From Lepidurus packardi (taxonomy: Eukaryota; Arthropoda; Branchiopoda; Notostraca; Triopsidae): 64,000 bases of DNA. Of the stretch, positions 6,426-64,000 are shown one piece after another (position 1 is the first letter of the stretch; the number at the start of each line of letters is the position of its first letter). Below the pieces are notes generated by a model. The model was not told the origin of the DNA and ran no database searches. It worked only from the letters and a program-made list of their open reading frames with translations. Where the stretch lies: positions 231,870-295,869 of the forward strand of contig JAKZAN010000057.1 of assembly GCA_023053545.1 (NCBI GenBank), read 5' to 3'. The position numbers and the translations under genes were made by a program.

Positions 6426-6475
6426 AATTTGAGCAAAGACACGGTCACATATGTGACCGTGTCTTTGCTCAAATT
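6426..6475. repeat. Perfect 50-bp palindrome
   Basis: The 25 bases 6426-6450 are followed directly by their exact reverse complement at 6451-6475, with no spacer; the centre reads ACATATGT. The corresponding place in copy B (near 16310-16345) has the inner part (GGTCACATATGTGACC) but not the outer arms. The palindrome was therefore extended in copy A or shortened in copy B. Confidence 0.95.
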
Positions 6476-6480
6476 GCTCA

Positions 6481-6594
6481 AAGACAAAATCTGCACTCCC
6501 AGCCTTTAAGGATGTAAGCAGGGAATGGTTGCTATATATATAGCAACCATTCCCTGCTTACATCCTTAAAGGCTGGGAGTGCAGATTTTGTCTT
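6481..6594. repeat. Perfect 114-bp palindrome
   Basis: Bases 6481-6537 are followed by their exact reverse complement at 6538-6594, centred on GCTATATATATAGC. It lies five bases after the 50-bp palindrome. Copy B carries only one arm of this sequence, at about 16347-16402 (including ATCCTTAAAGGCTGGGAGTG). Perfect arms of 57 bp would extrude as a cruciform or fold as a hairpin. They may reflect template switching during replication, or an assembly artefact. Confidence 0.95.
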
Positions 6595-7783: not shown

Positions 7784-7984
7784 TCATAGAAACGATGTCA
7801 GCTTTGTAATTGTTGGACAGTGTTTTCTTGCTAGTTGGGCGTAGGGCTGCTCAGATGAGACTCAACGGCAGTACTTTGACTATGCTTATTCCAAACATGA
7901 ATAGCTGTACTTTGAATCACATCCTGGAGAGTTTCAGCAGCATAAGTAGCATTAAAGTATCTATGCCAAGTCTGTCAGCTGACA
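7784..7984 (-). pseudogene. 3' fragment of the A4GALT-like glycosyltransferase gene
   Basis: These 201 bp match the last coding part of the glycosyltransferase gene (17557-17758), including the stop codon at 7784-7786. The fragment has no start and no upstream exon. An indel near 7862 (GACTCAAC here, GACGTCAAC in the parent) shifts the frame. It marks the left side of the junction with NURF301 sequence and shows how far the duplicated block reached into the neighbouring gene. It cannot encode the enzyme. Confidence 0.9.
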
Positions 7985-9158
7985 GACTACCAAACTTCGC
8001 ACAACTTCTGCTATATGCTCATAGTCTTTCTCGGCCAGTAAACGCAAATTTGCGTTATTAAGTGTGGAATCAGGCTGGCAGTAGTTTGGGCAAATATATT
8101 CGTCAATCATATCGGCCTCGGCTTGTACAATCCCAACACAATGAGCGTGAAACCAGTTTTGACATCGGTCGCAACAAATATATAACCTAAAAGTCCACAT
8201 GAAAGGAAACACTCAAAACACAGAAAAAGTTTCTTGCTTATATTACTGTGATTCATTGTACGGTTGGCGACAGAGACAGAAAATTTCCTTCGTCTCCTTA
8301 GATTTGGTGCAACCCACACAAACGTACTCGGTCATGGTACGGCTCATAGCTTCTGAAATACCAATGCACTCGCCATGGAACCAGTTTAAGCATATGTCGC
8401 AGCCGACATAAAACCTAAACGAATGATTTAGAGCCAAAGTTTCATACGAAAACTAAACTGTGGTACTTGGAACTGTCATAAGGAGTCTTGCAAATGCAAT
8501 GCAAATTCTTCCGATTGGTCAAATCTTTATCCTTCGCACTCGTTCGCCTTCTCTTGGTTTAGTTTTTGGAAAGTTGCGGGCTACTCACACGGTCATCCGG
8601 ACTAAGCCGTTTCTGTGTTACGCTATCACGAGTTTCGAGCGTGGGAGAGGACACGGGTGACATAGCATAATGTTCTGAGGTGACTCGAAGCTCAGCTTGT
8701 GTTTGCGCTTGTAAAGTTCTGTCGAGATTGTCACGGTAAATACAATACAATAAAATTGTAAGGTGATTCAAGTCCCATAATCTGACACAAATTTGTCAAG
8801 ACGCTTTTGGTTTTTAAATTTTACCTGGTAGCCAAACAATGATGTTCGATTCACGGTAACTGTAGAAGGCTGCTTCGTTACAATTTTGGTGGTCGTGACT
8901 TAATGGAAATAAAAAATCATACAAAATTCAATAGTATAATACGGTTGAAGACATTTGAGTATAGGTAGAACACGAAGTGAAAAAGAAATTTAATTATACG
9001 GACATTAGGACGCGGAGTTTTGCCATCAGCAACTGGTGTTTTGTGAACCGTGGGAGTGCCCACAAGCTGAAACCTGCCATCAGATAACTGGACCAACCTT
9101 CGACCGGGTAACAGACCACGGACTAAGAATTTCCCATCTAACGCGCGCGACACGCGAC
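7985..9158 (-). pseudogene. Rearranged NURF301/BPTF fragment (PHD fingers)
   Basis: The fragment derives from exons 22, 21, part of 20, 17 and part of 16 of the NURF301 gene (23471-26017), in the same strand and order. About 1.4 kb of the parent (roughly 24222-25625) is missing at 8738-8748. The parent codon TCA for serine is TAA here (near 8562), a 3-bp insertion interrupts the cysteine pattern of the last PHD finger (near 8082), and both ends are abrupt. It lacks a start, the N-terminal domains and the bromodomain. The right junction near 9158 passes into the 3' flank of A2M copy 2. It is a pseudogene, but it could still be transcribed in the sense of its parent. Confidence 0.93.
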
Positions 9159-15300: not shown

Positions 15301-15420
15301 TAGAGATGTTTTATTGGAAAATAAGTCTTACTTCTTATCACGTTTGGCGGAAATAACATTTAGTGTTAGAAATAAAGAGACGCACAACGCGCCCCAAACT
15401 CTTCGGTTAGTCAACATCAT
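9394..15420 (-). CDS. Alpha-2-macroglobulin-like thioester protein, copy 2 (complete)
   Basis: I traced 23 exons with consistent phases from ATG 15420 to TGA 9394, giving 1,531 residues, usual for the family. The first exon (15420-15332) encodes a signal peptide. Macroglobulin domains follow. The exon pair 12499-12403 and 12354-12180 encodes the bait region and the conserved FPETWLWD stretch. GCGEQ lies in the exon 11222-11072, the thioester domain is mainly 11013-10450, and the MG8 receptor-binding end is 10171-9499, ending ISDYYEQEKFVSQ. A last 21-bp exon (9414-9394) is inferred; reading through the preceding donor would instead give a slightly longer tail. There is no membrane anchor, so it is secreted, probably into haemolymph, and is expected to trap proteases covalently or tag targets. 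It is a near-identical tandem paralogue of copy 1. Confidence 0.95.
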
Positions 15421-17758
15421 CGTCACTTGTGACTATTCTTACTGAGGCTTCCAGTCAGTGGTAGCCTTTATATAATTGTGAGGGGAGCTCTCGAGAGCTA
15501 ACAGGAAACACCCAGGAAAGTCCCGTAGAAACAAGTTCCCCGAATTGCTTAAGACAGAGGATGCCTGATTTTCTTCTTTTTTTTAAAAAAAATTGGTAAT
15601 TCCAGAACTGGGGACGTCCGTAGTGAGAAGAAAAAAGCCAGGCACATTCGTGCTTCTTGAACACATTTTCGAGGAATACTTTTGAAATACAGTTGGGACT
15701 TCCCCGCTGGTACGATATTTTTCGAGGTCAAGGAAATAAAACGGTAAACAATCCACTACCGCTTTAAAACTATTTCTGCAGATCAAGATCAAGGCCAAAA
15801 GTCCTCCAGGCATGTTCAATCCGAGATGAGATTTACACGACGTTGAGTAAAGGAGCAAGAGAACAACTGGGAAATACTTTACTGTATGCAACAAAGTAGG
15901 AGTACTTTTGCATTGGGGATATTTTTATAACTGCTAAACGACGTAAACAACAATGGTTAGGTTTGCGTGTTCTAGTATAGAGCATTCAATACTTTCAACT
16001 CAGTAGGGCGGATATTTGGTAATGTGCGTGACTCGTAAGCCATCAAAAGTTGGGATCTCCTAAGTTCAGGAACCATGAAATTATATTTGTTTGTATGTTT
16101 GTTATATGACAGTGTTATGCTCAGTCATGCGTCAAATACTTTCGAATGCTTTACAAGGAAGTATCACAAAAGGAAATCTGAAGCTAAATCTACAATCTGA
16201 TGGGGAAATTAAAGTGCAGAAATAAGACTTTTTTAATTTCGTTACATTTATTGAACGAACGACAACTAGAAATACATAGTTGCAATATGCTGTAATTTGG
16301 AATTTTTGAATTTGAGCAAAGATGCGGTCACATATGTGACCGCTATATAGCAACCATTCCCTATACTTACATCCTTAAAGGCTGGGAGTGCAGATTTTGT
16401 CTTGTTTGCTTAGAAATTATTTTTCGTATAAGCACGACAAAGGCCAAGAGGGATTTTTTAACTGATTTTATTTATTTTTTATTCCTCTGGAGAAGAATAA
16501 TAAAAAGTCCGTGACCTCTATACAAACAAAATATGCAGGTCCAGGATTTGGACGAATACATGTGGTGTTTGAAATAATACATGTGGTGAACTTTTCCATG
16601 GATACAAAAAATAAATGCGTACACTTACCTCTTGCTAATCGAATATCCGAACACATGGCTTGAATTTTCAAGTATTAATTTTTCTAACATTTAATGTTCA
16701 ATTCTTACAATTTTCTGCCTGCGTTGAAATAAGATCATGGCATGTAAAACGTAAAACTCTAGTCAGAACTATTGCTGTTACGATGTGAGTTTGTATATTC
16801 GAACCAACTCTTATAATACGTTTTCAGGCTTGAAATTCCTCCGATATTAATAAATTTTAATATATTTAAATGACACAGGGTTCCTTAGACTTTAGTTGTT
16901 GGAACTTCTTAATTCAGTAATGGCTGCGATCACGTGTCCAGCTTGATCACACAGGTTATTTTTATTATCTATTGTTTTCGGACAGGTAAGCAATAGTCTT
17001 ACTGGCGTTGTCTGTTAATTTGATAGAATACTAAATGGATGTAAGTGAACGGTTGAACGGGTAAAATACATGTATAATACTTCTAGTTTTGGTTTGTAGT
17101 TTGCCATATGCATTTAAAAAAAGTTTCATTAGAACTGGTATTTTCTTTTCGGGGAATTTGACAGGCTAGCGTGACAAAAACAAGCAAATAAAGCAAACAG
17201 CAAACAAGCAAATAGCAGACATGAACAAAGCAAGAAACCGAGGCAACCACGAGAGTTAATAGTTGCGTGCATTATTTCTAAGGTGAAAGAAACGACAGCA
17301 GTAAAATCCGAATGGAAATCTTAGTTTTATAAGACAAAATAATGTATTTAATCCTAAACCCACGCAACAGAACAGATTATGTACCTGAAGGTGTGCATAA
17401 CATTGCGCAACACTTTTAAAACCGGTTTTATCATGCACCTTCTGACTTGTATAACCCCATCTTCTTACAAAAAAAAGTGGTTCAGAGACGTTGCTTTATG
17501 AGATCGTTAGAACCCCATAACCTTGTACTACCTGCTCAGGTTCGCAAGGTTCAGATTCATAGAAAGGGTGTCAGCTTTGTAATTGTTGGACAGTGTTTTC
17601 TTGCTAGTTGGGCGTAGGGCTGCTCAGATGAGACGTCAACGGCAGTACTTCGACTATGCTTATTCCAAACATGAATAGCTGTACTTTGATTCACGTCCTG
17701 GAGAGTTTCAGCAGCATAAGTAGCATCAAAGTATCTATGCCAATTCTGCCAGCTGACA
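9862..17758. repeat. Tandem segmental duplication, copy B
   Basis: This is the partner of 1-7984. At its right end similarity passes into the intact glycosyltransferase gene, so this copy keeps the original neighbour. The piece 15789-16154 has no counterpart in copy A. Substitutions elsewhere are sparse, in introns as well as exons, apart from the bait-region exons. Confidence 0.95.
15421..17556. other. 5' flank of A2M copy 2, no gene seen
   Basis: This interval separates the A2M start from the glycosyltransferase stop. It contains the copy-specific segment 15789-16154 directly upstream of the gene and a shorter version of the region that forms long palindromes in copy A. The AAGCAAA-rich tract recurs at about 17180-17240. 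No coding signal was recognised. Confidence 0.7.
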
Positions 17759-18662
17759 GGGTAAAACACCTTGATTGGTAGTACCCGGAACCCAAAACAG
17801 TTGTCGATTTCATTAAGCTGCTTTTTACACAGCTTTTGCAAGACTCGGGTGAAGAGTTCAGGTCCGTTATATCCCCATTTGTATTTTCTAAAAAATTGTA
17901 ACACTGCTATAACTTAATGTTTAATTTATTAACAATCTTCTACTTGTAATGAGCTGCAAACTCATGAATAATTTCTTCAATTATAGGATGTTTATGACGA
18001 ATGTGAATTGCACCAGCACCAACCCAGTCAGAACTCTCTAGCCCAATAAAATCTCTTGAAGTTTCAACAGATCTATGAAACAATACGTCCAAGTCGAAGT
18101 AGTAGCCTCCGAACTTCCACAACGTTAAATAACGCAAAGCATCACTTAAATGAGAAATGGCAAATGGACCAGACCACCACTGGCTGCAATAAAGCCATCC
18201 TTGCAATGGTGAACCGTCAAAATGTTTCGCCAAGTCTAAAGTCTTTATGTCAATGTTCCTATACTCTAATAATGCTTTTAAGGGAAGTGACGTGAAGTTG
18301 ATAGAGGTGCTGACCATGTATAGTTGTACGTTTAAATTTGGGTTGTGATAAGCAGCTGATTCGACAGAGCATGCTTGGCGCCAAGTTAAAGATGGCGCAC
18401 CTGATGTCTCGTGGAAGTAAATTTTAGTTTCGGGTTCGATATATTCGAATGTTTCCAGGTGAAGTTTTAAGGTAGATGGACACTGGAGGCAATTATGACA
18501 ACTACACCAATCAAAGTAATCACTTACACAACATGGTGTTTGATATTGCAGTTTGTCGACGATTGGTTGAAGCGAAGGTAAAACAGATTCGTTAAAGAAA
18601 CGCTGGTGAATTGTGAAGAAAAGCAATACACTTAGGAAACACGTCAGAACCTTATTCTTCAT
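17557..18662 (-). CDS. Alpha-1,4-galactosyltransferase-like glycosyltransferase (Gb3 synthase family)
   Basis: Two exons (18662-17944 and 17887-17557, intron 56 bp) give 349 residues, close to vertebrate A4GALT. The start is the ATG at 18662; an upstream in-frame GTG is not needed. A short cytosolic end is followed by a hydrophobic anchor (about residues 5-18), so it is a type II Golgi protein. Residues 80-240 carry the sugar-binding fold with LSDALRYLTLWKFGGYYFDLDV, where D190-L-D192 is the DXD metal/UDP-sugar site. The second exon holds the alpha-1,4-glycosyltransferase C-terminal region (KWGYNGPELFTR, HVWNKHS). It should add galactose or N-acetylgalactosamine in alpha-1,4 linkage to glycolipids. 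The acceptor in arthropods cannot be read from sequence. A broken copy of its 3' end lies at 7784-7984. Confidence 0.92.
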
Positions 18663-18819
18663 TTTTATGTCCACCTTAGCCTAAGCGACAACTAAGATTG
18701 CCTTAACTCGGACATCGGTCTTATCTTTCAAGATAAGACTACCTTAAAGATCTAATCTTCAAATTGCCCCCAAAAAAGGGAAGATAAGGAATTCTAGCGG
18801 GATGTGACCTAAGCATAGA

Positions 18820-18925
18820 TTCTGGCAACGCGACACAGGGACGGCTCGACAAAAGGACTACAAACCCCGACTTAAAGGACTACGAACCCCGACTTAAGGA
18901 CTAGGTTAGGGGCACAGTATATATA
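18820..18925 (+). repeat. Dispersed repeat with ACGAACCCCGACTTAAGG units
   Basis: The segment starts with GGCAACGCGACACAGGGACG, continues through three related GGACTA-containing units and ends in CTAGGTTAGG. A reverse-complement relative lies at about 34905-35010 and shorter relatives at about 34836 and 22600. It has no coding capacity and is probably a non-autonomous element whose end contains telomere-like TTAGG units. Confidence 0.7.
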
Positions 18926-20973
18926 GGTTTCTCATTAGAATAACAAGGGTGTCTTCCAATGTAAGGGTTTTGGACCGACTTTCTCAGTCGTAAAAGTAGA
19001 TTCAGGTAAAAGGACAGAAAATTGTCACTCCCAAATCTTGAAGGGGCATCAAGTCTGTCAAGAATTAGGAATGATGTTCGGCGAAAGGTGGGTTTAATTA
19101 ACTCTATTTGTGTAAAGAACAGTGGTCAAGTTAATGGGGACTACATTTACAGTGACCAAAGGGACTACAACATAACTAACGGACCAACAACGACTCTACT
19201 CTTGGATTCTTTCAGCTTGACTCTCTAAGACCGACTGTTCGAACTGCCATAATGTTCATACCGACCATTAGCAAAGTTGGGTATTAGCAAAGTTCTCTGT
19301 GACGATATCCACATTACTACCACGCCTCCCTCCCCGAGAACCAAAATTATGGGTACGGCCATGAACACCATGTATGTAATCAAGTACATGGGGTCCGGGA
19401 TTACCTGAGCACTGTGCTAAGCTTCAAGGATTAGTATATCAAATATTCGTGACAATATCAAAGGGTATATTCTCAAACCTCCCAGTACAGCTTCAAAAAG
19501 GTCACAATGGTTTACAAGACAGATCTAACGTCAGTCCAGAGCTCCCTAGAAAACCCGAGAAAAAGGTTGCCAAGTCCCCCGTTTTGTGAATGTCTTTTTC
19601 TAGTTGATTAGGAATGCCTACTTGTGGGGGCGTGGGTCTGTGCATCTATCCCTCGTATGTTCCGTCGCCCAAACCGAACCTACTGAGACCGAGAAAGCAG
19701 GCTCATACGTTTAACTCTAATTTATCTGTATTATGGTGACTAATTTTTATAGACCTTTTTCTGTAAGGTAAAACTTAAATATTGTAGTGAGAGGCCTCGC
19801 TACAGCCCGAGGTTTTGTACCGTTTGTCGATGTTGACATTCGTTTTTGGGAGATCAAGTGTATTGTCGAAGGTAGCAAAAAAAAAGGAATACAGTCAGTC
19901 GGGGTGCTGCGCTAAAACAGGCAATTCGCTCCTTCACACACGCGTTTGTATTACATTTTTTAAGTTGACGTGACAATACAGAGATTCTATTTGAGCGCTC
20001 TATAGGATTTGAATAGCGCGCGTCACTGAAAGAGGCAAGGGGCGCTTTGCCCAGCTTGCTGCATTAGCTCAGTCGCTCTTGCACAGCCGAACGTATTGGA
20101 TGTAGAGTCACGAGCTGTTGTCTTGACTGACTTTTGGGACTGTTCTCTTTTTAAGGTAAGTTCATTTTACTCTGTTTGTAGTTATACCAAAAAATCCTTT
20201 TGACCCATACGCAATAGTTTTAGCGTCGTCTGTGAAGTGTGTGTGTGGTTGGAGTGCGGTGTCCCAAGCGTTCAGGCCACAGTATAAAAGTTTACCTTTG
20301 TATATGTAAACCTACGCACTGTGGTTTGTTCGCGTAGACATTTTATTACTTTTGAAACGGACAATTTTCTTACATTTAGGCTAGGCAAGTCCAAACAAGA
20401 TGCCGCTGATATTATTCTTTGTTATAGTTGTTTGCTCCAGTTCGCAATGTTTTTTTTTTTTAGGAGAGACATCCTTAATTCTTTGTCTAGTCTTGCGTTT
20501 GCCTGTTATGCAAATGAAGCTGAGTGAAAGCATGGCGTACCCCGTGGGAGAGTTATGGATTTAGGTAAGATTGTTAAAATATATCTAATAGTGTTATAGA
20601 ATAGAATAGATCCGTAATAATAAAAGGACTATAGTAGGAGGTCCACCTAACGTCGCGGTTCCTCGTCCTTATTATTTAGTTATTAATACGTCTTACAAAT
20701 TTAAATCTCTGTGTGGCTAGATAATGAGCAGAAATTTCTTCCACTTGATATGCTACTGGCTCCTGACAGGGCTAGATACATGTCGTTCAGTCGAATTGTC
20801 CTCGTGTCTACGGCCGAGGTTGTACCTTGTTCAAGATTATAGTTATTGGACTGTGCAGTTTTAACGCTGAAAGAACCTCCTTAACTGCACCGATCTCTTG
20901 GTAATATACCATCTTCCAAATGTTTATATGATTTCAGACCTAATTTATTTACCTTAGGTGTTGTTTACCGTTA

Positions 20974-21141
20974 ATGGCTTTCTGGTTTGGATACACAGAA
21001 AGGGGAGAAGACTATTTAACGACCCTAAATAATATTCCATGCTTCGTTCACGTACAAATGGATCCTCTGGCTGTAAATCTGGTGGTTATATGCAGTTTTA
21101 TGTCAATCGTGTTTCAAGTGAGACTTCAATCAATTATTTAA
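20974..21141 (+). other. Possible small coding exon (55 codons), product unknown
   Basis: An ATG-initiated frame of 55 codons begins MAFWFGYTERGEDYLTTLNN and has a hydrophobic stretch near its end (LAVNLVVICSFMSIVF). It is preceded by an acceptor-like TTTACCTTAG (ending 20957) and contains a donor-like GTGAGA near 21118. A second hydrophobic, cysteine-containing frame lies downstream after TTTGTAG near 21333. No family was recognised, and chance is a fair explanation. Confidence 0.25.
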
Positions 21142-21966
21142 GAAATTTAAAAATTGATTTTTTAATTTTTTGTTAACATTCCAATTATGAACCCTACCAA
21201 ATGCGGCTGTTGTACTTTAAGGCAAGATTCACAGATTGGAAGGGTCGCGATGTTCAGCATAACAGGTTTGGAGTTCGACGTTGTGTTACTGTTCAATGTT
21301 TGAGAATTGTATTGTTTGTTTTCTCAATTTGTAGCTTTCTTGTAAAAATGTATCCCTCCCAACCATTCCTTTGGTGCACCATTTTCCAAATCTGTTATAA
21401 TGTTTGTTCTGTGACTTCTCTTAGCTCAAAAAATTGGATCTTAAAATTATGCAAATGAGATGTTTTGCTTTCTCCCGGAATTCCATATTTAGTTATTGTT
21501 GTACCCAAACGTTCCTCATACGATTTTTGGCTTCCAAAAGGGTAATTTTTGTTGTAAGATTTATAATTTTCTGAAATAAAAAAGCGAAAATTTGGAACAT
21601 TTTTGCGAGATTTTTCAAAACATCCGCTGAAAAGGGGTGTGGCCTACCAAAAATGGACGAATCCTATTGGTGGATCAAGCCAAAAAGGGGCGTGGCTCCT
21701 TTTCGAGCTGGGAAAGCGTTTTCAGGGCTTTTCTCCATAAGGAATAATGCTGTATCAAGGGGGTCCCCTTCAAAAATCGTGAAAAATTGAGAGCCTCGCC
21801 CCTTCCCCAGTTCCCAACTCTCCTGCTCGGTTCCCTGTCCCCGGTATTCGAACTCATGTTGCCGAAGCTACACAATTTCGAATATAGGAATAAGACCAAT
21901 GCCGGGAAAGCCTAATGTACAGAGATAGGGAGCCATTTCATATTTCGTTTTTTGGTCGAAATAAAT

Positions 21967-22045
21967 TGCTTCGACTGGGTTTTGAACCCACGACCTTCCC
22001 ATCACAACGCTTGCGTCTTATCCGCTCGGCCATACGCTTATATCT
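21967..22045 (-). repeat. tRNA-derived SINE-like head or tRNA relic
   Basis: On the minus strand the A-box-like TGGCCGAGCGGATA is followed by the B-box-like GGTTCAAAACC at the spacing of a tRNA gene. The acceptor and anticodon stems do not pair well, so it is unlikely to be a working tRNA gene. A second B-box-like sequence on the same strand (GAGTTCGAATACC, near 21842-21855) may be another degenerate unit. Confidence 0.6.
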
Positions 22046-23071
22046 GTATAGCGTTGAAACTTCTATTGAACAAAATATGTACTAAGCCTGTATACAGTGT
22101 ATGAAGGTAGCATACATCTTTTGTTCGATTTATAGAAATTTGACGGTTCGTTCATAGCCATGTCTTGTATTCTTTAAAAGTTTGTATATATCCTATTTAT
22201 TTGTAATTATATTGAAAAAGGGAATAAAAAATTCTTCCTTGATATGGTTTGCGTGTCAAAATCATTGAAAATGGCTACAAGGCCATTTGTTTGTTTTGTA
22301 TTCTTATTAAAGGCTCACAAATACAATACTATTTTTCAACGACAATCTATGGTCGCTTTGGATCTCAAACTTAACTGTCAGTCACGTCAATAGTTACGTC
22401 TTGAAGCCAACGCAAACAGTCTGGATGGCGACAAATTCAAACGGCAAAGACAGTTATCAGATAGTTTTGCAAATCAGACTTTCAAATCTTTCATCAATTT
22501 TCATTAATAAAATTCTTTAACCTCAAAAAATGTTTTATTTCGAATAACAAACAGATTTACACAATAAATGTGTCGGGTCGAGTGCACCAGTCCTTTTGTC
22601 GAGTCGTCCTTGTGTCTACGTTCCTAGATTCTGATGAATTCGATTCAAGGTATGCCACAAAAACAAGAATATGAATATATACCAGTGATCCTGTGAGATA
22701 ATACTTCAAAATTGACTACTGTAAAAAAAAATATTAGTAATAAAAAATACTGAATACAGCTAAGTTGCGCGCAATTATATCATATTACTTCCAAGTACAA
22801 TAAGGCCCATTACACAACGCACGACAATTTCTGGTGCTTCTATGCAAAACCTTCCGTGACTTGCGTACCCCTAACCAATCCAACAATTGATCTGTCACTT
22901 TTCATAGAAAATGAGCTAGGGAAATAAACATCCAACCAAGAAATATCAAAGCCGCGTGACAGCACGATTCCGAATAAGCCCGGTCTAGGTTGCAAAACTG
23001 GTTAGTAGGGGGCATTTTTGTCTTGCAGTCATATTTTTTTTTAATGAAACAAGCACGCGTGCACCTTCTTC

Positions 23072-26000
23072 CTATGAGTCCGTTAAAATCTTCCTAATGT
23101 TATGTAACCGTGGGACAAAGTAAGATTCTAGTGCTTCAGCACACTTATAAATGGAAGAGTCGTTGCTATTAAAATAACGACAGTTTTCAAACATTTTAGT
23201 AATATCGCCAACAACTTCAGCTAAGCGACGGTACTGTCGCGTAGATAGACGGCGAAGAATTTTCGCCAGATCTACGAAAACAAATATTAATTTAACTCAA
23301 ACGATCCCAACTATGACGCATTATTCTTACCCACAGGATCTTTGATCACTTCATAATAATTAGGTACAGTGTGTGGGTTGACAGCTTCACGAAAGGGCCA
23401 TGAATTCCGGTTTTTCTATAAAAACGCAAACAAAAATTCAAACCAAACATATCTTTTCGATTACAATTTTACCAATAAACTTCGCACAACTTCTGCTATA
23501 TGCTCATAGTCTTTCTCGGCCAGTAAACGCAAATTTGCGTTATTAAGTGTGGAATCAGGCTGGCAGTTTGGGCAAACATATTCGTCAATCATATCGGCCT
23601 CAGCTTGTACAATCCCAACACAATGACCGTGAAACCAGTCTTGACATCGGTCGCAACAAATATAAAACCTAAAAGTCCACATGAAAGGAAACACTCAAAA
23701 CACAGAAAAGTTTTTTGCTTATATTACTGTGATTCATTGTACGGTTGGCGACAGAGACAGAAAATTTCCTTCGTCTCTTTAGATTTGGTGCAATCCACAC
23801 AAACGTACTCGGTCATGGTACGGCTCATAGCTTCTGAAATACCAATGCACTCGCCATGGAACCAGTTTAAGCATATGTCGCAGCCGACATAAAACCTAAA
23901 CGAATGATTTAGAGCCAAAGTTTCATACGAAAACTAAACTGTGGTACTTGGAACTGTCATAAGGAGTCTTGCAAATGCAATGCAAATTCTTCCGATTGGT
24001 CAAATCTTTATCCTTCGCACTCGTTCGCCTTCTCTTGGTTGAGTTTTTGGAAAGTTGTGGGCTACTCACACGGTCATCCGGACTAAGCCGTTCCTGTGCT
24101 ACGCTATCACGAGTTTCGAGCTTGGGAGGGGACACGGGTGACATGGCATAATGTTCTGAGGTGGCCACTTGAAGCTCAGCTTGTGTTTGCGCTTGTAAGG
24201 TTCTATCGAGATTGTCACGGTACTTCAACATAGCCCGCCGCAGATTGTCTGCGTGGCGCATCATAAGTGAGATCAGTTTTTCTCCCATCACTTGCTTCCG
24301 ATCAATCGCTTTGGCCACAGTTCGCTGTACTCGAACAGGTTCTTCCATCACCGGTTTACCCGTAGCCGAACTGTCATGTAATGGGACACGAGATCCGCCA
24401 CGAGGCGTGCTAGCTACTGATTCAGAGTCTGTGCTTTCTTCCACACGCTTTTTCTTATGATTAAAGGGAACTACGTTACTCCCGGTAGTTGCCTTTTGCT
24501 TCTCTTGGTAACGCTGAAGTTGTAACAACTTATGTTCCACATCTGGGTTTAAGTTTTCTTGCTTCAATGCTTTACGGATAGCTAAATGACCAGGAATTAA
24601 AGGATTACTGGACCCAAGCGCCATAATTGACATACTTTGTTGGATGAAATCACGAGTAACTACAAACTCATTTTCAGAGCTGTTTGTCCCACAGGTTTCA
24701 GACGCTTCTGGTGCTACGTTGCTCTTTTCAGGAGCAATAGGAGACGGACGCTGGGCAGGAATTCCGATCTTAATCTGCAACGGAGTATCGGGTAGTTTGG
24801 CACCCTTGTCTGCTTGCTGCTTCAATTGTTGCGCTTCATAAAAGGACAATTCATACATTTGAAATTAACGCCGTAAATACATAACTTAATTTCATTCTAC
24901 ATTAATCCAAATGGCATACTCTGCTGAAGCTAGTTATTCAGTTTACAACTCGCTTAAATCTTGCTTACAATAATGTAGTAAATATATTTAAAAAAAACTA
25001 AAAAAGAAATCGTAGTATACATACCTTTTAGGAGCTGCGATTTGACCTGTTCTTGAATAGCTTGGACCTCTTGTGCAGAAAGACTATTCCCTTGAAGTCC
25101 CTGAAGAATAATCCGTGGTCCTTGCGTCGTCTGGACAAGCAGAGCAGTAGGCTTTTCGCTAACCGCAGGAATCGAAGCTTCGCCAGTCTGAAAAGACAAG
25201 AATCAGCACATTAAAATCACACATTTCATGACACTTTCCGAAATACTGAATCTAGTTTCAGGTGATACATGTTCTAAAGAATTGCGAATTATCTATGCTA
25301 TGAACTTACATCCGATACGATTTTTACTTCCATCTTGCCAGTGGAAACCGCTCCTTTCGTTTCCTCCACGGAAGACGTGCTTAATTCTCCAGCGGCTGCA
25401 CTAGAGTCATTTGCAACCTGCGCTGGTTTGGTAATCTGACCGTCGGTGTTGGGTACCACCTATGTAAAAGAGTCACATAAATACTAAAAATTAATACAGA
25501 AAAATACATAATTACTATAGAATAAAAACATAAATAATATACAAATACTACATAAGTAATACATTAAATAAATACTAAACATTATAAGAAAACATCGAAA
25601 CTGATCGTCAAGCAATAAATAAAATTCAATAAAATTGTAAGGTGATTGAAGTCCCATAATCTGACACAAAATTGTCAAGACGCTTTTGGTTTTTAAATTT
25701 TACCTGGTTGCCGGACAACGATGTTCGATTCACGGTAACTGTAGAAGGCTGCTTCGTTACAATTTTGTTGGTCGTGACCTAATGGAAATAAAAAATCATA
25801 CAAAATACGGTTGAAGATAATTGATTATAGGTAGAACACGAAGTGAAAAAGAAATTTAATTACACGAACATTAGGACTCGCAGTTTTGCCATCAGTAACT
25901 GGTGTTTTATGAACCGTGGGAGTGCCCACAAGCTGAAACTTGCCATCAGATAACTGGACCAACCTTTGACCGGGTAACAGACCACGCACTAAGAATTTTC

Positions 26001-29000
26001 CATCTAACGCGCGCGACACGTGTAACTTTTGTTGCACCCCTGTGGTATCTATTAGGGACAAAAAGGAGATTAATCCTAATTCTCTAAAATTTTTGCAGTT
26101 TGCATTAGAAACATACTTGCGCCCGGCATGCGAATAACCGTGACTTGATTTGGCTTCACTGGAGTGCCTTGTTGTGGTTTCTTTTGAATTTCGGCTTGAG
26201 CTAAACGATTTTTTTGTGTAAATATGAGAATATTATTTTTTTTAAAAATTGGTTACGTTTCGATATTGCCAGCTGTTTTAAGCCTCCAGTTGCAGCCCCT
26301 CCTGCTTTCTGCGTGGAGGCGAGTAAAGTAGCCAAAGTATTCTTAGTTACCGGCAAACCACCAGACGCCGCTTGTAACGCCACTTTTCCACCTTACATTA
26401 AAACTATTAGCGGCAATTTATTAGAGATATTTTTTGCACACCTGGAATAGTAAACCGAAGGTAAGTTTTGCCACTTATTTCAACACGAGAGCTGTTTGGC
26501 AGTTGGCTTATTTTCGAACGGTCTACTTTCACAGTTGAACCTTGCTTCACTCCAAGTTTTGACAACTGTTCAGCATTGCCCTTCCCACCAGCAAATAGGT
26601 TCGTCATGGCGTTTGTCTTCTTCATGGCTGCATTCGCGACAGCTTTTTCATTCCTAAACAGCGGAAAAGAAATAAAAATCTTACAGATAAATAAACCACA
26701 AATAAATAAATAATACATAATACAAATAATACATTAATCACGACAATAGGCGAAAGCCTTCTTAAAGAATTTAAAGACCTAAAAATCTCATAAATAATAT
26801 AAATAAATAAATAATAAACTAATTGAAGTTATAAAAGAAGTTACACGAAATGGCATGATTATTGTAAAAATAATTAACTGCAATAGAAAAAATCAAGTAC
26901 CTTTCGTAATATTGTTTGATATCCCACAGTTCCAACTTATTCTCTTCCACCCAATCTTCGCTTACAAGAGGTTCACTTAAACGAGGAGACTCAACTCGTT
27001 TTCTCTTCCTCAAACCAAAACGTGACGGTGTTACCTCTGAAGAAACCAACCTAAGTAGAATCAAACGCTTCCACTTGAAATTTAAGTAGCTTACCTCTAA
27101 CTGTCTTTGGCAGTTCTAGCGGAATAACGACACGTCGACAAAAATACTGCGTCTTGTCCAAAAACCGACCAGTGGTACGGTGTTTCAAAATTTCTGTAGT
27201 AGTTATCTCGGTGTCGGTTGTAACCTGATTTTTGCCGTCTACTGTTGGGGGTTTCGCCTATTGCAAATGGACTGTAATGGAAAACCAGCTCAAGATATAA
27301 GTCTCTTACCTGCATATCATCCCACCGTAAACACGCCCAGAAAATACGGAGCTGTAATGCTAGATCAGTCAATGAACGTGCCGACGATGTACGGTACAGC
27401 CAACACGTACGGAATGCTGGACGACAGCAAGGGTACGGCCACGCACTGGGATTGGCCTATATAGAAATTACATCTTAATCGAATACATATTCAGGCAATA
27501 ACTATCACTTGAAATACTGCCATTAAAATTTCACAAAAATGTTGAAAAATGTTTTTTTTTTTTTTTTGCAATTTTGAAAAATCTTTGCAATTTTTGAATT
27601 TTTTTGTTGAAATTTTGAATTTTTTTAAGTTTTGTAAAAATTTTATTAATTTTCAAGAATTTTTTTTTTTTACTTCAATAGTAGTCAACTTGAATTAAAG
27701 AAGACCTTTGCCGTGGAAATGAAGCCAGATTTTTTTTTTTTTTTTACTTAAATAGTAGTCAACTTGAATTAAAGAAGCTAAATACCAACCTTTGCCGTGG
27801 AAATGAAGCCAGAAACACTAATTTGCCCCCGTTTTCGCGCCAAACGACGTAATTCGTTGGCTTCGAGCACAAAGAGTCCCCTCTTCGCACTTCGAGTCAC
27901 GAAGCTGGACGTACGGGGGTATGCTACCGGGACACGTACTGCAGTCTTTCCCTTGACAGTTGGTAACTTCTGCAGGGCATATTTCTCGGAAGTTTCTGTT
28001 GCAGGATCGACTCCTGTCGCTTTGGAATCTTTCACGTCTTCCAGCTTTCCGTTCACTTTTAAAGAACGTTGCATTCGCCGTTGGGAACAGAGGGGTGAAT
28101 AGCACCCAGTCCCACACTCGAAAACGTAGCAGGGATTTGAAAATCCATACAAATCTTTTGGTTTTTCGTCTGAAAGTTCAGGAGGCTCAATTTTCACGTC
28201 TGGAACCTTTTTCTCCATCTCTCCCTGACGGAGTCTCCAAGCAAGGAGAGCATCCAACTTTCTAGTCTTTGCCACTTTGGCATAGACCTTCCTTGACGGG
28301 TCGTTGAACGCTTGGGACACGTCTACTACGTCACGAAATGGATCCTGATCCGTCGAAACGTCCATATCATCGCTTTCGATTTCAGAAGTAGCGTCTACGC
28401 CGTTTCAAAATACAAAATTGAAGTAAATTAATAAGCTACAAGCGCTTTTATGCTTTTTATTACCGGTTTCTCCCTTCAAGACTTTAGCCAGTCTTAGTAA
28501 TCCCATATTATCAACATTTATTCGCTTAATGGGACGAGTTGCTGATACCCACAACCAGCCCCATTGGCCATGATTCCGGAATTCCTCCCCTTTCATTTTC
28601 CACAGCTATAAGATGATACATTAAATTCGGAATATGATATCCAAGATCAATTAGCAATCCCAATTTACCTGGTGCTTAACGCCTAGCGTATAATGCACAG
28701 TATGCACCCGGAACATTTCTTCTTCCATATCTTTTTCCTTTTTTTCTTTCTTGTCGAGTTTTTTCTTGTTCTCTCTTTCTTGTGCAGTTTGTCGATGGAA
28801 ACGAACGTGACCAAGAGAGTCAAACCAGAGAGCGTTACAAGCTACTGGTCTTATACACATGGCCAGAACGGCTAGCGTTCGACTGAAATCACGGGGGGTA
28901 GAAGCGTTGTTCACTGCGACTGTCCATGCCTTGCGGACCACGTGCCAATTCGTGTGCATAAAAGCGGAATGTAAGGAGTCGCGCAGGGCTAATAAACTGG

Positions 29001-42297: not shown

Positions 42298-44864
42298 TTA
42301 CAGCGTTCCAGGAAACGGCGGCGTCTGCGGAGGAGTATGAGAATGTCTCGCACCCCTCTTATCCAAGGACGTTGTTATATGAGGCGCACTAGGAAGTACA
42401 TGTTCCTTACTGCGGCTACTGGCACGATCTTGACGAACGGATAGCGAGAGAAATGGATCTTGCGCCGTGACTTGCAAGTATCCTTGCCTGAACAAAAGTT
42501 TACATATAAATTTTGTGTTCGCTAATACTATTGATTTCCAAGTGTCATCAATGTTAAGATTTAAAGGATGTAAGTACACATAGGCGCCGTGACTAGCAAG
42601 TATCGTTACCTGAACCAAAAGTTTGCAAATCAAGTCTGTGTTCTCTAATACTCATCATTTCCAAGGTTTGGTCAATGTTAAGATTTACGGGATGTAACTA
42701 AACAAATGAATTAATAAACCTACGACATAACTTACCGTTTCCTCAAGTAAATCCACAGGTGGAAGTCAACCCATACAAGGAGTGTAAACAACAAAGCCGC
42801 AAACATGGCTGACGCTAGCATGAAAGTCAACGCCAGCCTAGGAAAAGAACTTGTTTTGAAACAAGAAGCCAAAATGTTTGAATTACTGACATTCCAGAGT
42901 CGCAAATTATCTCCACTATCGTCACATGATCCTCACGGATGTCTTGGCAGTTCAGTAAACTGAACAACACGTTTACCGTGTCTGTTGCTTGTCCAAAAGA
43001 TCGGAGCACATTGTCTGCCGTAGGTTGAAGCTAAACATAGGAACGTAAGCACAGTATTTTTTTTTAAGACGAGTTCAACCCAAAACACAGAATTATATCT
43101 AAATATAAACACTATAAATCTAATGTAATCAACTCTAATGTAAATCAACTATAATGTAAATCAACTATAATGTAAATCAACTATAATGTAAATCAACTGT
43201 AATGTAAATCAACTATAATGTAAATCAACACTATTAAGCTATTACGCTCAGGAATTAGCCGAAGCCAAAAACTTAGTTCTATGTCATGCATATAAAGCGT
43301 AAGATTACGTAACCATATGCCACAGTACCATTAGATCATTTACTTCGTAGTCAAATATTTTTCAGAATGTTTTTTGGAATACTCTAAAGACATGCATCGC
43401 AATCTTGATACTCGAGTACGAAAAGTATTGTAGACTTCTCTATTTATAGGAGATAATTTCCGCGTTTGTGGTTGGACTTACAGTATATAACTATTCGTTC
43501 TATAAATAACCCTAACTTACATCTCTTCTTGAATAGAAATCCGCCGACATCGTAACAAACTCAAACGTAGAACTGTTAGCACGATTCAAGTGCTGACGAA
43601 TACGAGCTACCCCCTCTTGGGAGAGCGAAGCCATGCTCGAATTTCCCAATGATAAGCAATTCGTATACATTGCTGCATAGTTTTTCCCAATTACACCTTT
43701 AAGCACGCTACGAGCGTGCACATTTGGATCAACACATACGTCTCCCAGTGCCTAGTCAAAGTACGGTTAAGGACTACAAATTCTTTAAGGCTTTTTACCA
43801 TGGAGGTCATCAAATACAATGAGGCCAATCCATAATTGAAGACAATTCCAATAAGGCCGAAAACAGAAAACCTGCACAACAAATTAAAATTAACCAAATT
43901 AAAATTATTTTCCGAAGTTTAGCTTACAGTATAAGGAGGCACCGCGACTTTCTTACAACGGCAAATACGAGGACTAGACATAATAGAATTAGAGCGCTCA
44001 GAAGTGACATATTTAGCGCCCATCTATCACAGTAATACGAATTATTAGTACTAATAAGTAAGTAAGCAAAACAAATAAGGTAAAAGCTAGTTACCGCACT
44101 CTTTCCCAATAGTCAACACTCTGTGTATCAAACGTGTGGAGCCCTAGCCCACGACTCGAAATAATGGTCACTTGTTGAGCCACATAACTTAAGTTGCCAT
44201 CAATTGCCTTCATGTACGCCGTCAAGGAATCATGCACACTTTGATTAAAAATAGGTCTTCCAAGCAAAAGTTTGAGCTCTTGGACTAAACGGACAGTACT
44301 GTCTTCAAGTGTCGTGTTTAACGCCGTTAGCTATAAATGAAATGATATCCACCGTTCCAAATTTGCGAAACTTGAATTACCTGCGTATCGACGGATTTGA
44401 ACTTCTTTTTCAAACGATTTACGTGAGAAATTGTGCGTGTCATTGCATTGTGACTATCATCATTTCCATATAGACCAAGTGCGAGCACTCCGCTATAAAA
44501 CAAAGTATAAAACTTTGCGTAAATAGGTTAGGTTAGTTGTTACCAAGTAATGGTAGCTGCTACAATCAACACCAGTCTTTGACATTCCAGAGTTTTGTAC
44601 GCACTTAAGGGTCGTACACAACATCTTGAAGACAAGTAGATCAACAATACTATCAACGTTAGCAGTAAGCACGTAATAGGGACGCCTCCAGCAATGATCA
44701 AAGCCTTAACAATGTACAAGAAATAACAGGCTCGCGTCTTTCTACTATGAATACCGTACCTCCCGATAAATGTGAGATGATGGATCAAAGCTACTGTTGA
44801 TGGCTTGAAAACTGGCGTCCACGTGCGGTAACGCACTATAAAACCGTGACAATGATGATGACAT
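42298..44864 (-). CDS. tty: Tweety-family anion channel
   Basis: Ten phase-consistent exons (first 44864-44760, last 42487-42298) give 481 residues. Tweety proteins are plasma-membrane proteins linked to swelling- or calcium-activated chloride currents. Exon 1 has the family N-terminus (ALPHVDASFQAINSSFDP). Hydrophobic spans follow: IIAGGVPITCLLLTLIVLL, a span around GVLALGLYGND, SLLSALILLCLVLVF, FSVFGLIGIVFNYGLASLYL and a last one, LTFMLASAMFAALLFTLLV. The extracellular loop has the family cysteines in ALGDVCVDPN, MYTNCLSLG and SLLNCQDI...EIICDSG. The tail is Ser/Thr-rich. The stop codon overlaps a good donor (CTGTAAGTAAG), so a further 3' exon is possible. The last exon has a decayed duplicate just upstream. 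Confidence 0.93.
42472..42697. repeat. Duplicated terminal-exon border in the Tweety gene
   Basis: The 112-bp unit 42472-42583 is followed directly by a diverged copy at 42584-42697. Each contains, on the minus strand, a TTTTG..TTCAG acceptor and the first bases of the last Tweety exon. Splicing to the outer copy joins G to TAA and stops at once after LRKR, whereas the inner copy reads on as RQGYLQVTAQDP. The outer copy is therefore a decayed or truncating alternative exon. Confidence 0.8.
43121..43229. repeat. 16-bp minisatellite in a Tweety intron
   Basis: About seven near-identical head-to-tail copies of a 16-bp unit (TAATGTAAATCAACTA) lie in the intron between exons 7 and 8. The first unit is shortened to TAATGTAATCAACTC. 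Confidence 0.9.
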
Positions 44865-50849: not shown

Positions 50850-51039
50850 GATAATCTTTCAGAACCGCAACCTCATCCCGAGTCAAATGAGAATAAGTCA
50901 CTTCTTGACTGTTAAGTAATTGTTTGGGATTCCCGACTGCTAGCGATAATCTTTCAGAACCGCAACCTCATCCCGAGTCAAATGAGAATAAGTCACTTCT
51001 TGACTGTTAAGTAATAGTTTGGGATTCCCGACTGCTAGC
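50850..51039. repeat. 95-bp tandem duplication
   Basis: Units 50850-50944 and 50945-51039 are almost identical; TAATTG against TAATAG is the clear difference. The length is not a multiple of three. On the minus strand each unit reads SQEVTYSHLTRDEVAVLKDY, in different frames. It could be the relic of a coding 3' end or simple non-coding duplication. Confidence 0.9.
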
Positions 51040-59882: not shown

Positions 59883-60736
59883 TTACTTCCGTGGTGATGG
59901 GGCAAGACCAGGTAATCCTGGGACGCCTCCGCTAACAGCAGCTCCCGGACCCAATAATATCTACATACAAATAGTAAAATGAATCTAACTATTTGAAGCT
60001 GATTAACAATTCGTACTTGGCGTTGTTGTTGACGTTGAATCTCTTCCATTTGGGCTCTCTCAACTTCGAAAATAACCGGAGCTACCAGAATGGCAGAGGT
60101 GCTAAACACGATCCAAGCAACAGATCGTGCGTATTTGAAAATCGCTACAAAATATATTTTAATTTCAATTCCACACTTTTTCACTACATACTTTGCAGTG
60201 CTATACAGGAAGACGATACGATTTTCCCAGTACCTTCTCGAACTATGTCTGGGAACATCTCTGTTAAGCCGACAATCCTTTCGTACAGGCTTTCATCAAT
60301 GTCCTGATAAAAACATACATTTAGGTGGTTTATATTTGTTTCTAGTTATGCTTACGAGTTATGTTGCAAATACTCAATGTCAACGACCAAGCAATAATTA
60401 TATTAAAACTAATCTAACGTGAGTAACATTAAAATAAAATCTGCGTGGTGTGTTTCATAAATTACGCGGGTGATCAGTCTGAAGTGTAAAAGTAACGTCA
60501 ACGACTGACGTGACATTGAAAGTTTAAGGGGTTAATTAATCCAGCAACGCCAGCTTATTTAGAAACCAATTTCAATTTGACAACGTAATAGGCAGAACAC
60601 AACTTATTCTTCATACCTCAAGCTCGTCCTCAATTGAAGATGTGGGATCCGCAGTAGTTGTGGAAACTGTATTTCGGGTTTGCACATTTTCGTTAGGAAG
60701 TTCAGAGCTTTCGTTTTCTTCTTGCAAAGTAACCAT
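59883..60736 (-). CDS. TOMM22: Mitochondrial import receptor subunit TOM22
   Basis: Four exons (60736-60617, 60303-60192, 60144-60017, 59960-59883) give 145 residues, against 142 in human. TOM22 is the central receptor of the outer-membrane TOM complex. The acidic cytosolic head includes EDELEDIDESLYERIVGLTE, followed by MFPDIVREGTGK. A single membrane span (AWIVFSTSAILVAPVIF) follows. The intermembrane end (QRQQQRQILLGPGAAVSGG) matches the vertebrate pattern. The stop codons of TOM22 and GGA are 139 bp apart, tail to tail, so their 3' ends may overlap. Confidence 0.95.
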
Positions 60737-61334
60737 TTTCTTATGCAATGTCTTAATAAAAGCCGATAAGGTACAAGTTAATCAAATGACCAGACGTTAC
60801 AAAATTTGCTTTACATAAAAGCTGCTCACAAGCACATGGTCCTAAGGGTACGGCGACACTCAACTCTGATGGAAAACCATGGCAAACCGCCGCGTGACGT
60901 AGACGGATCCCCAACCCGCATCTAGCGTGCTTTCATTTAACCCGCCTTCATGTAATTTGTTGCATAGGGGGTGTAAGTTTGTAAAGTAAGAATTCAATGG
61001 AATTAACCTGTTAAATCACACCAATTTAGTACGAAGTGTAGCTTTAGCAGTGATTTAATTTGCACAGCTCAAAATTGGTACGATTCATTGTTGTCGCACA
61101 GATCAGAAGACATCTTGCTTATTTAACTACATGTGATCAAGAAAGCTTTTCGCGGAATTAGCATTACTGTCGATCTCTCAAGCAGATAGGCTATTACAGT
61201 ATGAAAACATTCGATATAGGTACGACAGGTGGAAGGGCTATCACAACCCCCGCTGCAACTCGCATAAAAGCGGGTTCAGCCATGTTAGGGGAGGGGCTAG
61301 CGATCCGCTGCGAGGGTTGCATGCCGCAGCACAC
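60737..61334. other. Flank of TOM22 and of the OTU/transposase gene
   Basis: This segment contains the TOM22 promoter and DNA upstream of the TATA box at 61335. If the downstream gene is a transposon, its left terminal repeat could lie here, but the other end is outside the window so it cannot be recognised. Confidence 0.5.
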
Positions 61335-61373
61335 TATATAAGGCCGTTGCATTGAACCATTCATCCTTCAGTC
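61335..61373 (+). promoter_or_regulatory. Core promoter: TATA box and arthropod initiator
   Basis: TATATAAG at 61335-61342 is followed at usual spacing by TCAGTC (61368-61373), the arthropod initiator pattern. The leader to the ATG at 61677 is about 300 bases and holds imperfect repeats of TTATAGTGTAGTTC and of AACCCGGATTA / AACCTTGGATTAGAT. Confidence 0.7.
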
Positions 61374-61676
61374 CTTCACTGTGTTTCGCATGTTAGCTAG
61401 TATTAAATTGTAGCGTAGTGCCTTATAGTGTAGTTCCTTATAGTGTAGTTCTTCTAACCCGGATTAATTATTTAATGTAGTTCCTCTTAACCTTGGATTA
61501 GATTTTTCAGTAAGGTTATTTTTTATTGCATTCTGTGTTTCCCTTTGACTTTTTTCTTGGATTGATTATTTAGTTCTGTTCTTCTTTAACCCGGATTATT
61601 TTTTTTCCTCTTAACCCTGGATTAGATTATTTGACTTTTTTCTTCTAACAGATTAACCCTTTCTCTCTTTACTAAT

Positions 61677-64000
61677 ATGAGTAAATCAAGGGCGCAGTTT
61701 TTTAAAAATTGTCTACGCGATCTTGAACGTAGAGCAAATTTGCCTGCGTCGGCCTACGATAGTTCTTCAAGAGCGCCCATACTGATTAGTAACGAACATT
61801 TTGAGAAGTTTAGGCAGGCGTGTTTTTCAAAGAAAACAGAGTTCGATGCTTACCCTCTCCCGAAGCGTATGGCAATATGGCAATCTCAGAGTTTTAATAT
61901 TGACCAAATTGACACAACTGCTTCCAGTACTTTGCCCGAGCGTTTGAGCGAATGTTTAGCTTTGTGCAGCAATGGAGATGGGAATTGTTTCTACAATTCC
62001 GCTTCTTTGTCTTTGTTCGGCAACCAAAGGCATGCCGTTGAGTTGCGCTGCCGAGTTGTGGTCGAATTAGCAACCAATTATGAGTTGTACTCCAGGGAGT
62101 CGGCAGGATACCTCTCGATGAAACAAATTGGAACCCTAGTCGAGTACTCAGGATTCACTTTCGACCGTGTTAAATTCACGGGCGTTGACTCAGTGTGCCC
62201 TACAGGTATTCCACCGGCGGAAGACTGTTTTAAGTACTATTCCATGGAACACGCCAGGGATCGGGAATATTCGAGCATTATTGCATTCCCAGCTTTGGCT
62301 AATGTTTGTAAGATAGCCGTGGAGTCAGTTTATCCGAAAGCGGATGGAATCAGAGCATCTCATCAAGCGAATTTTTTAAACGAGACGTTTTCACCAAGCG
62401 GTGCCGTTTCCTCTGAAACTATTCGAATTTTGTGGACTGGGCTTTTGGCAAACTTCACGAAGAAGGAAAATGGACGTTTAGTCCCTCCAACATACTGGAA
62501 TCCCAATCATTTTGTGCCTGTGATTGAGCGTGCTAGTCAGTCACCCCTCTTTTTGTCAGAGAACTGCACTCTTCCGGTTCTTGATGTGGTAGAAACTGCG
62601 TCAGTTATTCCCAGTCATCCAATTGAAACTGCAAATGTGATAACACCTGTTGCAGTTTCTTTTTGCAGCTCTATGCAAAATAGTAGTAGCGCTGTTAGTT
62701 CAGGGCTTCGCGAGTCGTTCTCGCATGAAAATTCAAGCTCAGATTTTGAATTGTCTGTCCCAAAAGCTTTTGCCGCAAATAATGGAGAGCACGAAGAAAA
62801 TGTCACTAAAGCCATTTCATCGAATGGTAAAACACCTGGTGTGAAGTCAGGCAGAGTAGTATCTCATACCAAACAAGGGCCTTCAAAATTTTCGTGCAAG
62901 GGATGTGAAACTACGTTCAAAACAAATCAAAATTTGAAGAATCACATTAAAAACAAGCGCTGCAAGTTTCAGCTAGGAAAACAAAGCTCTAGTCAGATTC
63001 TGCTTGCCGAGCAAGGATCTAAGGGCTTTATTTGCGAAGACTGTAAAACCGTTTTCACAAGGAAGAGCAATTTGAAGTTGCATATAGAAAAGAAAAGATG
63101 TAGCAAGTCTAGTTTTGAGTGCCCACAGTGTAGTTTGCAGTTTTCTAGAGCAGACATGCTCACCCGTCATGTAGAATTAGTTCATTCTCTTGAATTAGAA
63201 GAAACACGTACTTCTGAGGAGATCCCCTTAATTGGCCCGGTAGACAAGGAGCATTCCTTAAACTTGATTTCAGTTGACAAGCAGCAATTGCACATCTTAG
63301 TCGAGTTAGATCAGTCAGAGCCGACTTACGACCCAGTAATAAATTCTGCGTTTCAGAGCAGTGTTAGTGGTAGCGTGTCTGCTGATACCATTAATTGCAG
63401 TACTTTAGTCATCGATTCTGACGACGAATTCTGTAACGTTGCTAGAAAAAAGAGAAAGCTCGAACAGCTACCAAGAATAATTTGCTATCACCCTGGTTGT
63501 GAAGAGAAGCTGTCACGCCTGACGTCTTATGTTGAGCATGTTCACGATAAACATGGTTTGTCCTGCCAGCTAGAGGAATTCAGTTTTTGTAACGAGAACA
63601 GTTTCATGTCGTGGAAAACAGAGATAGAAAGAAATGCTTGTGTTAGTTTTCGTAATCGAAGGGGAGCTCGGAAGTGCACTAGTTACAGTACAACAACCTA
63701 CGTGTGCAATCGCTCTTTCTCGTATAAAAATCAGGGTACAGGCAAACGTGCCCTGAAGCGACTAAAGTCTTGTTGTACGGGTGTCCATTGTACCAGCTTT
63801 ATAATTGCGCAAGTATGGCACCTTACAAAAAGAATTGAGGTTACATGTTGCCTAACTCATGTTGGCCATGATCGTTTACCAGGTCGTTGTCGCCTTCATG
63901 AAGGAACAGAAGAATTACAACATAAGCTTTTGATCGGAATCCCTAAACCCAAAATTATTGAGAGTTGTATGGCAGAACCCATCATCAGTGATGTACTTTC
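61677..64000 (+). CDS. OTU protease - zinc finger - MULE-like transposase protein (3' end outside the window)
   Basis: The frame is open for 774 codons from ATG 61677 to the window edge with no intron, unlike every neighbour. Residues 95-285 form an OTU-type cysteine protease: GDGNCFYNSAS (D101, C104) and NPNHFVPV (H278) supply the triad. Three zinc fingers follow: CKGC...H...C (407-429), CEDC...H...C (453-475) and CPQC...H...H (482-503). A fourth (CYHPGC...H) is near 603-626. ARKKRKLE (589-596) is a probable nuclear signal. Residues 635-765 match the region before many animal MULE transposases (SWKTEIERNAC, YVCNRSF, GKRALKR, CTSFIIAQV, CCLTHVGHD, KLLIGIPKPKIIE). The transposase core should lie beyond the window. 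It is either an autonomous element or a domesticated gene, and looks intact. Confidence 0.85.
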   Translation, partial: MSKSRAQFFKNCLRDLERRANLPASAYDSSSRAPILISNEHFEKFRQACFSKKTEFDAYPLPKRMAIWQSQSFNIDQIDTTASSTLPERLSECLALCSNGDGNCFYNSASLSLFGNQRHAVELRCRVVVELATNYELYSRESAGYLSMKQIGTLVEYSGFTFDRVKFTGVDSVCPTGIPPAEDCFKYYSMEHARDREYSSIIAFPALANVCKIAVESVYPKADGIRASHQANFLNETFSPSGAVSSETIRILWTGLLANFTKKENGRLVPPTYWNPNHFVPVIERASQSPLFLSENCTLPVLDVVETASVIPSHPIETANVITPVAVSFCSSMQNSSSAVSSGLRESFSHENSSSDFELSVPKAFAANNGEHEENVTKAISSNGKTPGVKSGRVVSHTKQGPSKFSCKGCETTFKTNQNLKNHIKNKRCKFQLGKQSSSQILLAEQGSKGFICEDCKTVFTRKSNLKLHIEKKRCSKSSFECPQCSLQFSRADMLTRHVELVHSLELEETRTSEEIPLIGPVDKEHSLNLISVDKQQLHILVELDQSEPTYDPVINSAFQSSVSGSVSADTINCSTLVIDSDDEFCNVARKKRKLEQLPRIICYHPGCEEKLSRLTSYVEHVHDKHGLSCQLEEFSFCNENSFMSWKTEIERNACVSFRNRRGARKCTSYSTTTYVCNRSFSYKNQGTGKRALKRLKSCCTGVHCTSFIIAQVWHLTKRIEVTCCLTHVGHDRLPGRCRLHEGTEELQHKLLIGIPKPKIIESCMAEPIISDVL

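Follow-up and report, generated by a model that had tools for sequence, protein, structure and literature searches.

The window, by which is meant the whole 64-kb stretch of Lepidurus packardi DNA that was analyzed, contains a set of host genes and, at its right-hand end, a long open reading frame on the forward strand. Ten of the other frames in the window were scanned against Pfam; seven matched a family and three matched nothing. The matched frames encode an alpha-2-macroglobulin TED domain, a glycosyltransferase, a DDT-PHD protein that is presumably BPTF-like, the E2 domain of APP, an exonuclease, and, in two adjacent frames, the VHS-GAT and adaptin domains of a GGA protein. The window is animal DNA. 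The neighboring host genes are seen merely as short separate frames, which were taken for exons.

Several repeats were also recorded in other parts of the window. A large and apparently recent duplication relates positions 1–9154 to positions 9862–26020, and an assembly or haplotype artefact is also possible. Its segments are 1–5929 and 9862–15787 (97.6% identity), 6537–7985 and 16344–17759 (93.3%), 7992–8738 and 23477–24222 (96.7%), and 8737–9154 and 25616–26020 (91.4%). As a result, the alpha-2-macroglobulin exons and some of the sequence beyond them are present in two copies. The 114 bases from 6481 to 6594 form a perfect palindrome, equal to its own reverse complement. A 95-base unit is present in two tandem copies at 50850–51039 (98–99% identity), and a 16-base tandem repeat with 6.9 copies and 95% matches is found at 43121–43229.

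From position 61635 onward, the forward strand of the window has a frame without stop codons up to its last base. This corresponds to 788 codons in all and to an open reading frame of 774 codons from the ATG at 61677 (61677–63998), which continues beyond the window end. A chance origin of the frame was considered using 40 first-order Markov copies of the 64-kb window, each read in all six frames. The longest stop-free frame in these copies had a mean length of 155 codons and never exceeded 217 codons, and the frame of 774 codons is thus not ascribed to chance. The codon usage of the long frame correlates with that of seven pooled pieces of neighboring host frames, which were trimmed by eye, with a coefficient of 0.68. 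The corresponding values for the other five reading frames are 0.24–0.30 for four of them and 0.55 for the fifth. Since no stop codon interrupts the 774 codons, the coding part that is seen has no obvious intron. The earlier description of the gene, made from the sequence alone, as one uninterrupted frame without introns is borne out, the latter for this coding part.

A plausible TATA/initiator pair precedes the frame. The TATA box (TATATAAG) at 61335–61342 of the forward strand was located from the sequence and by a motif scan as a consensus match only, and the initiator-like TCAGTC at 61368–61373 starts 33 bases past the start of the TATA box. The arthropod initiator consensus is TCAGT. These two elements agree with the sequence-only reading, in which the gene was said to have its own TATA/initiator promoter, at the level of a consensus match. 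The leader that follows (61371–61676) has a G+C content of 32%. Its A+T-rich portion at 61408–61646 contains imperfect direct repeats (self-match E value of 1.9e-7), with copies of a 47-nt repeat at 61461, 61559, and 61585 and shorter repeat families around them. A possible intron in the leader was considered by eye from a polypyrimidine tract and CAG near 61651, which may be no more than a further copy of the leader repeat.

On the opposite strand, to the left of the frame, lies a TOM22-like (TOMM22-like) gene that was matched to PDB TOM22 with an E value of 7e-8. Its likely first exon was assigned by eye near 60620–60740. Because this neighbor adjoins the frame on the left and is divergent from it, the gene described here begins in the upstream region of the TOMM22-like gene. 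Within 60760–61680 there is a single pair of inverted repeats of at least 14 nt, at 61014 and 61072, and a few exact pairs of 8–9 nt also occur. No mark of the end of a mobile element was found in 60760–61680.

An OTU-like cysteine protease domain is predicted in the N-terminal part of the protein (61929–62540, forward strand, with approximate limits set by eye). OTU proteases carry an Asp-x-x-Cys catalytic motif at the start of the domain and a histidine late in it. This pattern is seen in D101 and C104 of a GDGNC motif, placed in the translation at 61977–61988, and in H278 (62508–62510), the candidate catalytic histidine within NHFVPVI. The three residues of the catalytic triad listed earlier are thus all at the positions given for them.

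The curated cut-off for the Pfam OTU family (PF02338) is 23.3 bits. The whole protein scores 14.2 bits (E value of 0.063). The score rises to 15.1 bits for a fragment of 374 residues (E value of 0.033), to 16.2 bits for one of 220 residues (0.015), and to 17.7 bits for a core of 73 residues (0.0052). The E value for OTU improves as the fragment becomes narrower, and none of these four stretches, all of which hold the GDGNC motif, exceeds the cut-off. The Otubain model also appears for the 73-residue core, more weakly, with an E value of 0.13, and the protease half matched no other Pfam family. In all four stretches the OTU alignment spans profile positions 1–39 of 128, around GDGNC, and for this reason the full OTU fold is not demonstrated. 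Three fragments that contain H278 and lack GDGNC matched no family. No match to the protease part was found in PHROGs. The single-sequence structure model for residues 1–374 has a mean pLDDT of 34.6, which is too poor for a fold search.

The 73-residue core was also compared with the sequences in the PDB, and 21 of these were matched at E values up to 10, with a best value of 0.12. Seventeen were counted as OTU proteases. They comprise two OTUD7B, one OTUD1, and five A20 sequences, one named ubiquitin thioesterase, and eight sequences labeled as viral or as RNA polymerase, which we take to be viral OTU domains. The other four matches are three RNase constructs and one methyltransferase. The likeness to OTUD7B, OTUD1, and A20 (PDB 5lrw, 4bop, and 2vfj) lies around the catalytic motif and is weak, with E values of 0.12 or worse, and these proteins are host enzymes. 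None of ten shuffles of the 73-residue core matched OTU. Three of the ten matched other families at E values of 0.065–0.18, so a value near 0.06 says little on its own. When residues 141–330 were shuffled 20,000 times, a histidine motif of the NHFVPVI type, a pattern that was picked post hoc, appeared in 52 of the shuffled sequences.

These results bear on one alternative, namely that the frame is an ordinary host C2H2 gene whose likeness to OTU is limited to the GDGNC motif, with neither a protease fold nor a transposon origin. Such a gene would be compatible with the sub-threshold alignment to the first 39 profile positions and with the fragments around H278 that matched no family. It is nevertheless unlikely, given that OTU proteases from several subfamilies make up most of the PDB matches, that the shuffled cores failed to match OTU, and that a fitting histidine motif follows. 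The domain around GDGNC is accordingly best described as a predicted OTU protease that falls below the Pfam cut-off, an assignment in which we place considerable confidence.

The zinc fingers that follow are secure. Pfam identifies finger 1 (62895–62963, residues 407–429) and finger 2 (63033–63101, residues 453–475), both of the C2HC form of C2H2, and finger 3 (63120–63185, residues 482–503) of the C2H2 form, all on the forward strand. The PF00096 model scores 45.3 bits over three stretches, against a cut-off of 25.2 bits, with an E value of 8e-12. Zinc-finger structures in the PDB match the fingers with E values down to 3e-16, and NCBIfam gives a single match to them with an E value of 3. A fourth C2H2-like sequence, C-x4-C-x12-H-x4-H at 63483–63554 of the same strand, is only a motif. 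Its putative ligands are C603, C608, H621, and H626, as counted by hand, and it has a sub-threshold match to FOXP-CC with E values of 0.0036–0.02. Between the third finger and this motif, the basic run RKKRK (63444–63458, residues 590–594, forward strand) is a plausible predicted nuclear signal. To our knowledge, OTUD7B, OTUD1, and A20 do not occur with such a C2H2 array.

The sequence-only reading had described an OTU/zinc-finger fusion in one frame with four zinc fingers and a nuclear signal. The intact frame and three of the fingers stand, and the fourth finger is reduced to a motif. The basic run is present and may act as a nuclear signal, and the OTU part is retained as a sub-threshold prediction in line with the PDB matches.

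The remainder of the protein is encoded by 63555–63998 of the forward strand, and the sequence-only reading had designated this stretch as the region that precedes a MULE transposase core. The motif CNRS...GTGKR is located at 63705–63758, and its pattern matches the window once. We take the arrangement Y-x-C-N-R-S ... G-x-G-K-R-x-x-K ... T-H-x-G-H to be common to many animal proteins that have a MULE-type DDE core further on. C677, C705, H728, and H731 are candidate zinc ligands and could belong to a WRKY/GCM1/FLYWCH-like zinc domain. Residues 627–774 gave no Pfam match at E values up to 10, WRKY, GCM, FLYWCH, and FAR1 included, and no match in NCBIfam or among PDB sequences. The only PHROGs match to the C-terminal part is at chance level (E value of 0.34), and the single-sequence structure model for residues 591–774 has a mean pLDDT of 31.9. 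No MULE-type DDE core was matched in the 774 residues present, and such a core would fall past base 64000. The MULE assignment is therefore a lead taken from the motif, and the searches neither support nor contradict it.

No credible second copy of anything in 60760–64000 was found elsewhere within the 64-kb window. Scans of viral contigs and tblastn searches of phages and plasmids gave no true relatives, although an animal transposon would hardly be expected in such sequences. The pattern of the OTU motif matches the window and no viral contig, and the pattern of the C-terminal motif also matched no viral contig. One phage contig (L001) was considered as a relative on the basis of a tblastn match of 34% over 65 N-terminal residues, with an E value of 3e-5 that is relative to the candidate stretches only. 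It was set aside as a chance match because its frame reads, by eye, as a terminase and shares the eight residues that the scan had picked. All 11 of the other loci (L002–L012) lacked a tblastn match to the protein at E values up to 1. Two of their matched frames, in L009 (1916 residues) and L011 (679 residues), look unrelated by eye, and none of the remaining frames is longer than 104 residues. A search for PF02338 found it neither in the genome of L002 nor in 14 control genomes, and the result is therefore uninformative.

Transposons with OTU proteases (Ginger1 and Helitrons) or Ulp1 proteases (Mutator) are already known, and the gene could belong to a class of this kind other than the MULEs, such as Ginger1, Helitron/Helentron, or an LTR or other element. 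An OTU domain is documented in Ginger1 transposases (PMC2836005) and in animal Helitrons (PMC2836005, PMC9741609). The Ginger1 protein (PMC2836005) resembles the one considered here in that an OTU cysteine protease domain and a zinc finger are combined in one DNA-transposon protein. In Ginger1, however, a Gypsy-integrase-like core with an H2C2 finger comes first and the OTU domain lies C-terminal to it, whereas the protein of the window has an N-terminal OTU domain, C2H2 fingers, and no integrase part in its 774 residues. Ginger1 proper was rejected for these reasons, with the OTU motif at residue 101 being at the wrong end. The OTU-bearing Helitrons and Helentrons are likewise animal transposons whose proteins have an OTU domain (PMC9741609, PMC6431247), but these are rolling-circle Rep-helicase proteins. 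Pfam models for integrase, Rep, helicase, or endonuclease do not match the 774 residues seen, and a Helitron was rejected for the part of the protein at hand. Membership in another transposon class is decidedly unlikely.

In the explanation that we favor, the window contains the 5′ portion of a DNA transposon that is autonomous, is probably of the MULE type, encodes an OTU deubiquitinase at the N-terminus of its protein, and is inserted in the upstream region of the divergent TOMM22-like gene. We regard the case for this explanation as evenly balanced. A transposon gene fits because a long intronless frame, zinc fingers, an additional zinc-binding stretch, an apparent promoter of its own, and a position close to a gene occur together. 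The MULE class is favored because of the C-terminal motif and the habit of insertion near genes. MULEs are generally marked by terminal inverted repeats and a target duplication of 8–11 bp. They tend to insert in or near genes, and some MULE families have no terminal inverted repeats (PMC6446971). Neither a DDE core nor a terminal repeat, a target duplication, or a second copy could be recognized in the window, and the far end of the proposed element lies outside it.

In the proposed protein, the N-terminal OTU deubiquitinase is followed by three or four C2H2 fingers, then by a nuclear signal and another zinc-binding stretch, and finally by a DDE core that would lie beyond the window. The fingers and the last zinc domain would bind the ends of the element, and the DDE core would catalyze cutting and joining. 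The OTU domain may deubiquitinate the transposase itself, or else repair or chromatin proteins in its vicinity, and this would leave a longer-lived transposase or a repaired break. Bao et al. (2010, PMC2836005) proposed that Ulp1 and OTU domains may activate repair factors while transposition is under way or once it is complete. The transposon nature of the gene, its MULE class, the target, and the role are our inferences.

If the gene is indeed from a MULE, two known systems are close to it. Some Mutator elements, from hydra, lancelet, and plants, have Ulp1 protease domains (cited in PMC2836005), and in both cases the transposon would carry a protease that acts on ubiquitin or on a modifier resembling it. 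The protease is Ulp1 in the Mutator elements and OTU here, and the MULE core is not within the window. The Spectre clade of arthropod MULEs combines a C2H2 finger with a MULE transposase, but the finger and the transposase are in two ORFs (PMC6446971). The words OTU and protease are absent from this MULE survey. Within the literature searched, no MULE with an OTU domain was found, and neither was the pairing of the terms "OTU domain" and "MULE transposase"; such elements may well be on record elsewhere, as in Repbase reports or subscription papers. The existence of an animal family of Mutator-like transposons whose transposase carries an N-terminal OTU deubiquitinase and a C2H2 array is put forward only tentatively, as somewhat doubtful.

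The main rival is a domesticated copy, that is, a host gene derived from such a transposon that would have kept the OTU, finger, and zinc domains and would now act as an immobile regulator that binds DNA and removes ubiquitin. A host gene, too, would be expected to look like one intact gene that has a promoter of its own and lies next to a housekeeping gene, and the conversion of transposon genes to transcription factors has been described across animals (PMC10027918). Against this, the 774 codons without an intron contrast with the short separate frames of the neighboring host genes. Domestication is rather unlikely on this evidence. Without a MULE core, the gene would be an unusual OTU–zinc-finger gene.

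Should the MULE-type transposon be correct, there would be a further class of transposon in which one protein unites the transposase and a deubiquitinase, and MULEs, like Ginger1 and Helitrons, would have acquired a ubiquitin-removing enzyme. The activity of the OTU domains of Helitrons and alloherpesviruses was still untested as of 2022, according to PMC9741609, and for this reason the intact frame could serve to test it. Proteases would then have been captured repeatedly, as OTU domains by Ginger1 and Helitrons, as Ulp1 domains by Mutator, and as tegument-like proteases by Helentrons, which would suggest that mobile DNA in general needs to have ubiquitin or SUMO removed.
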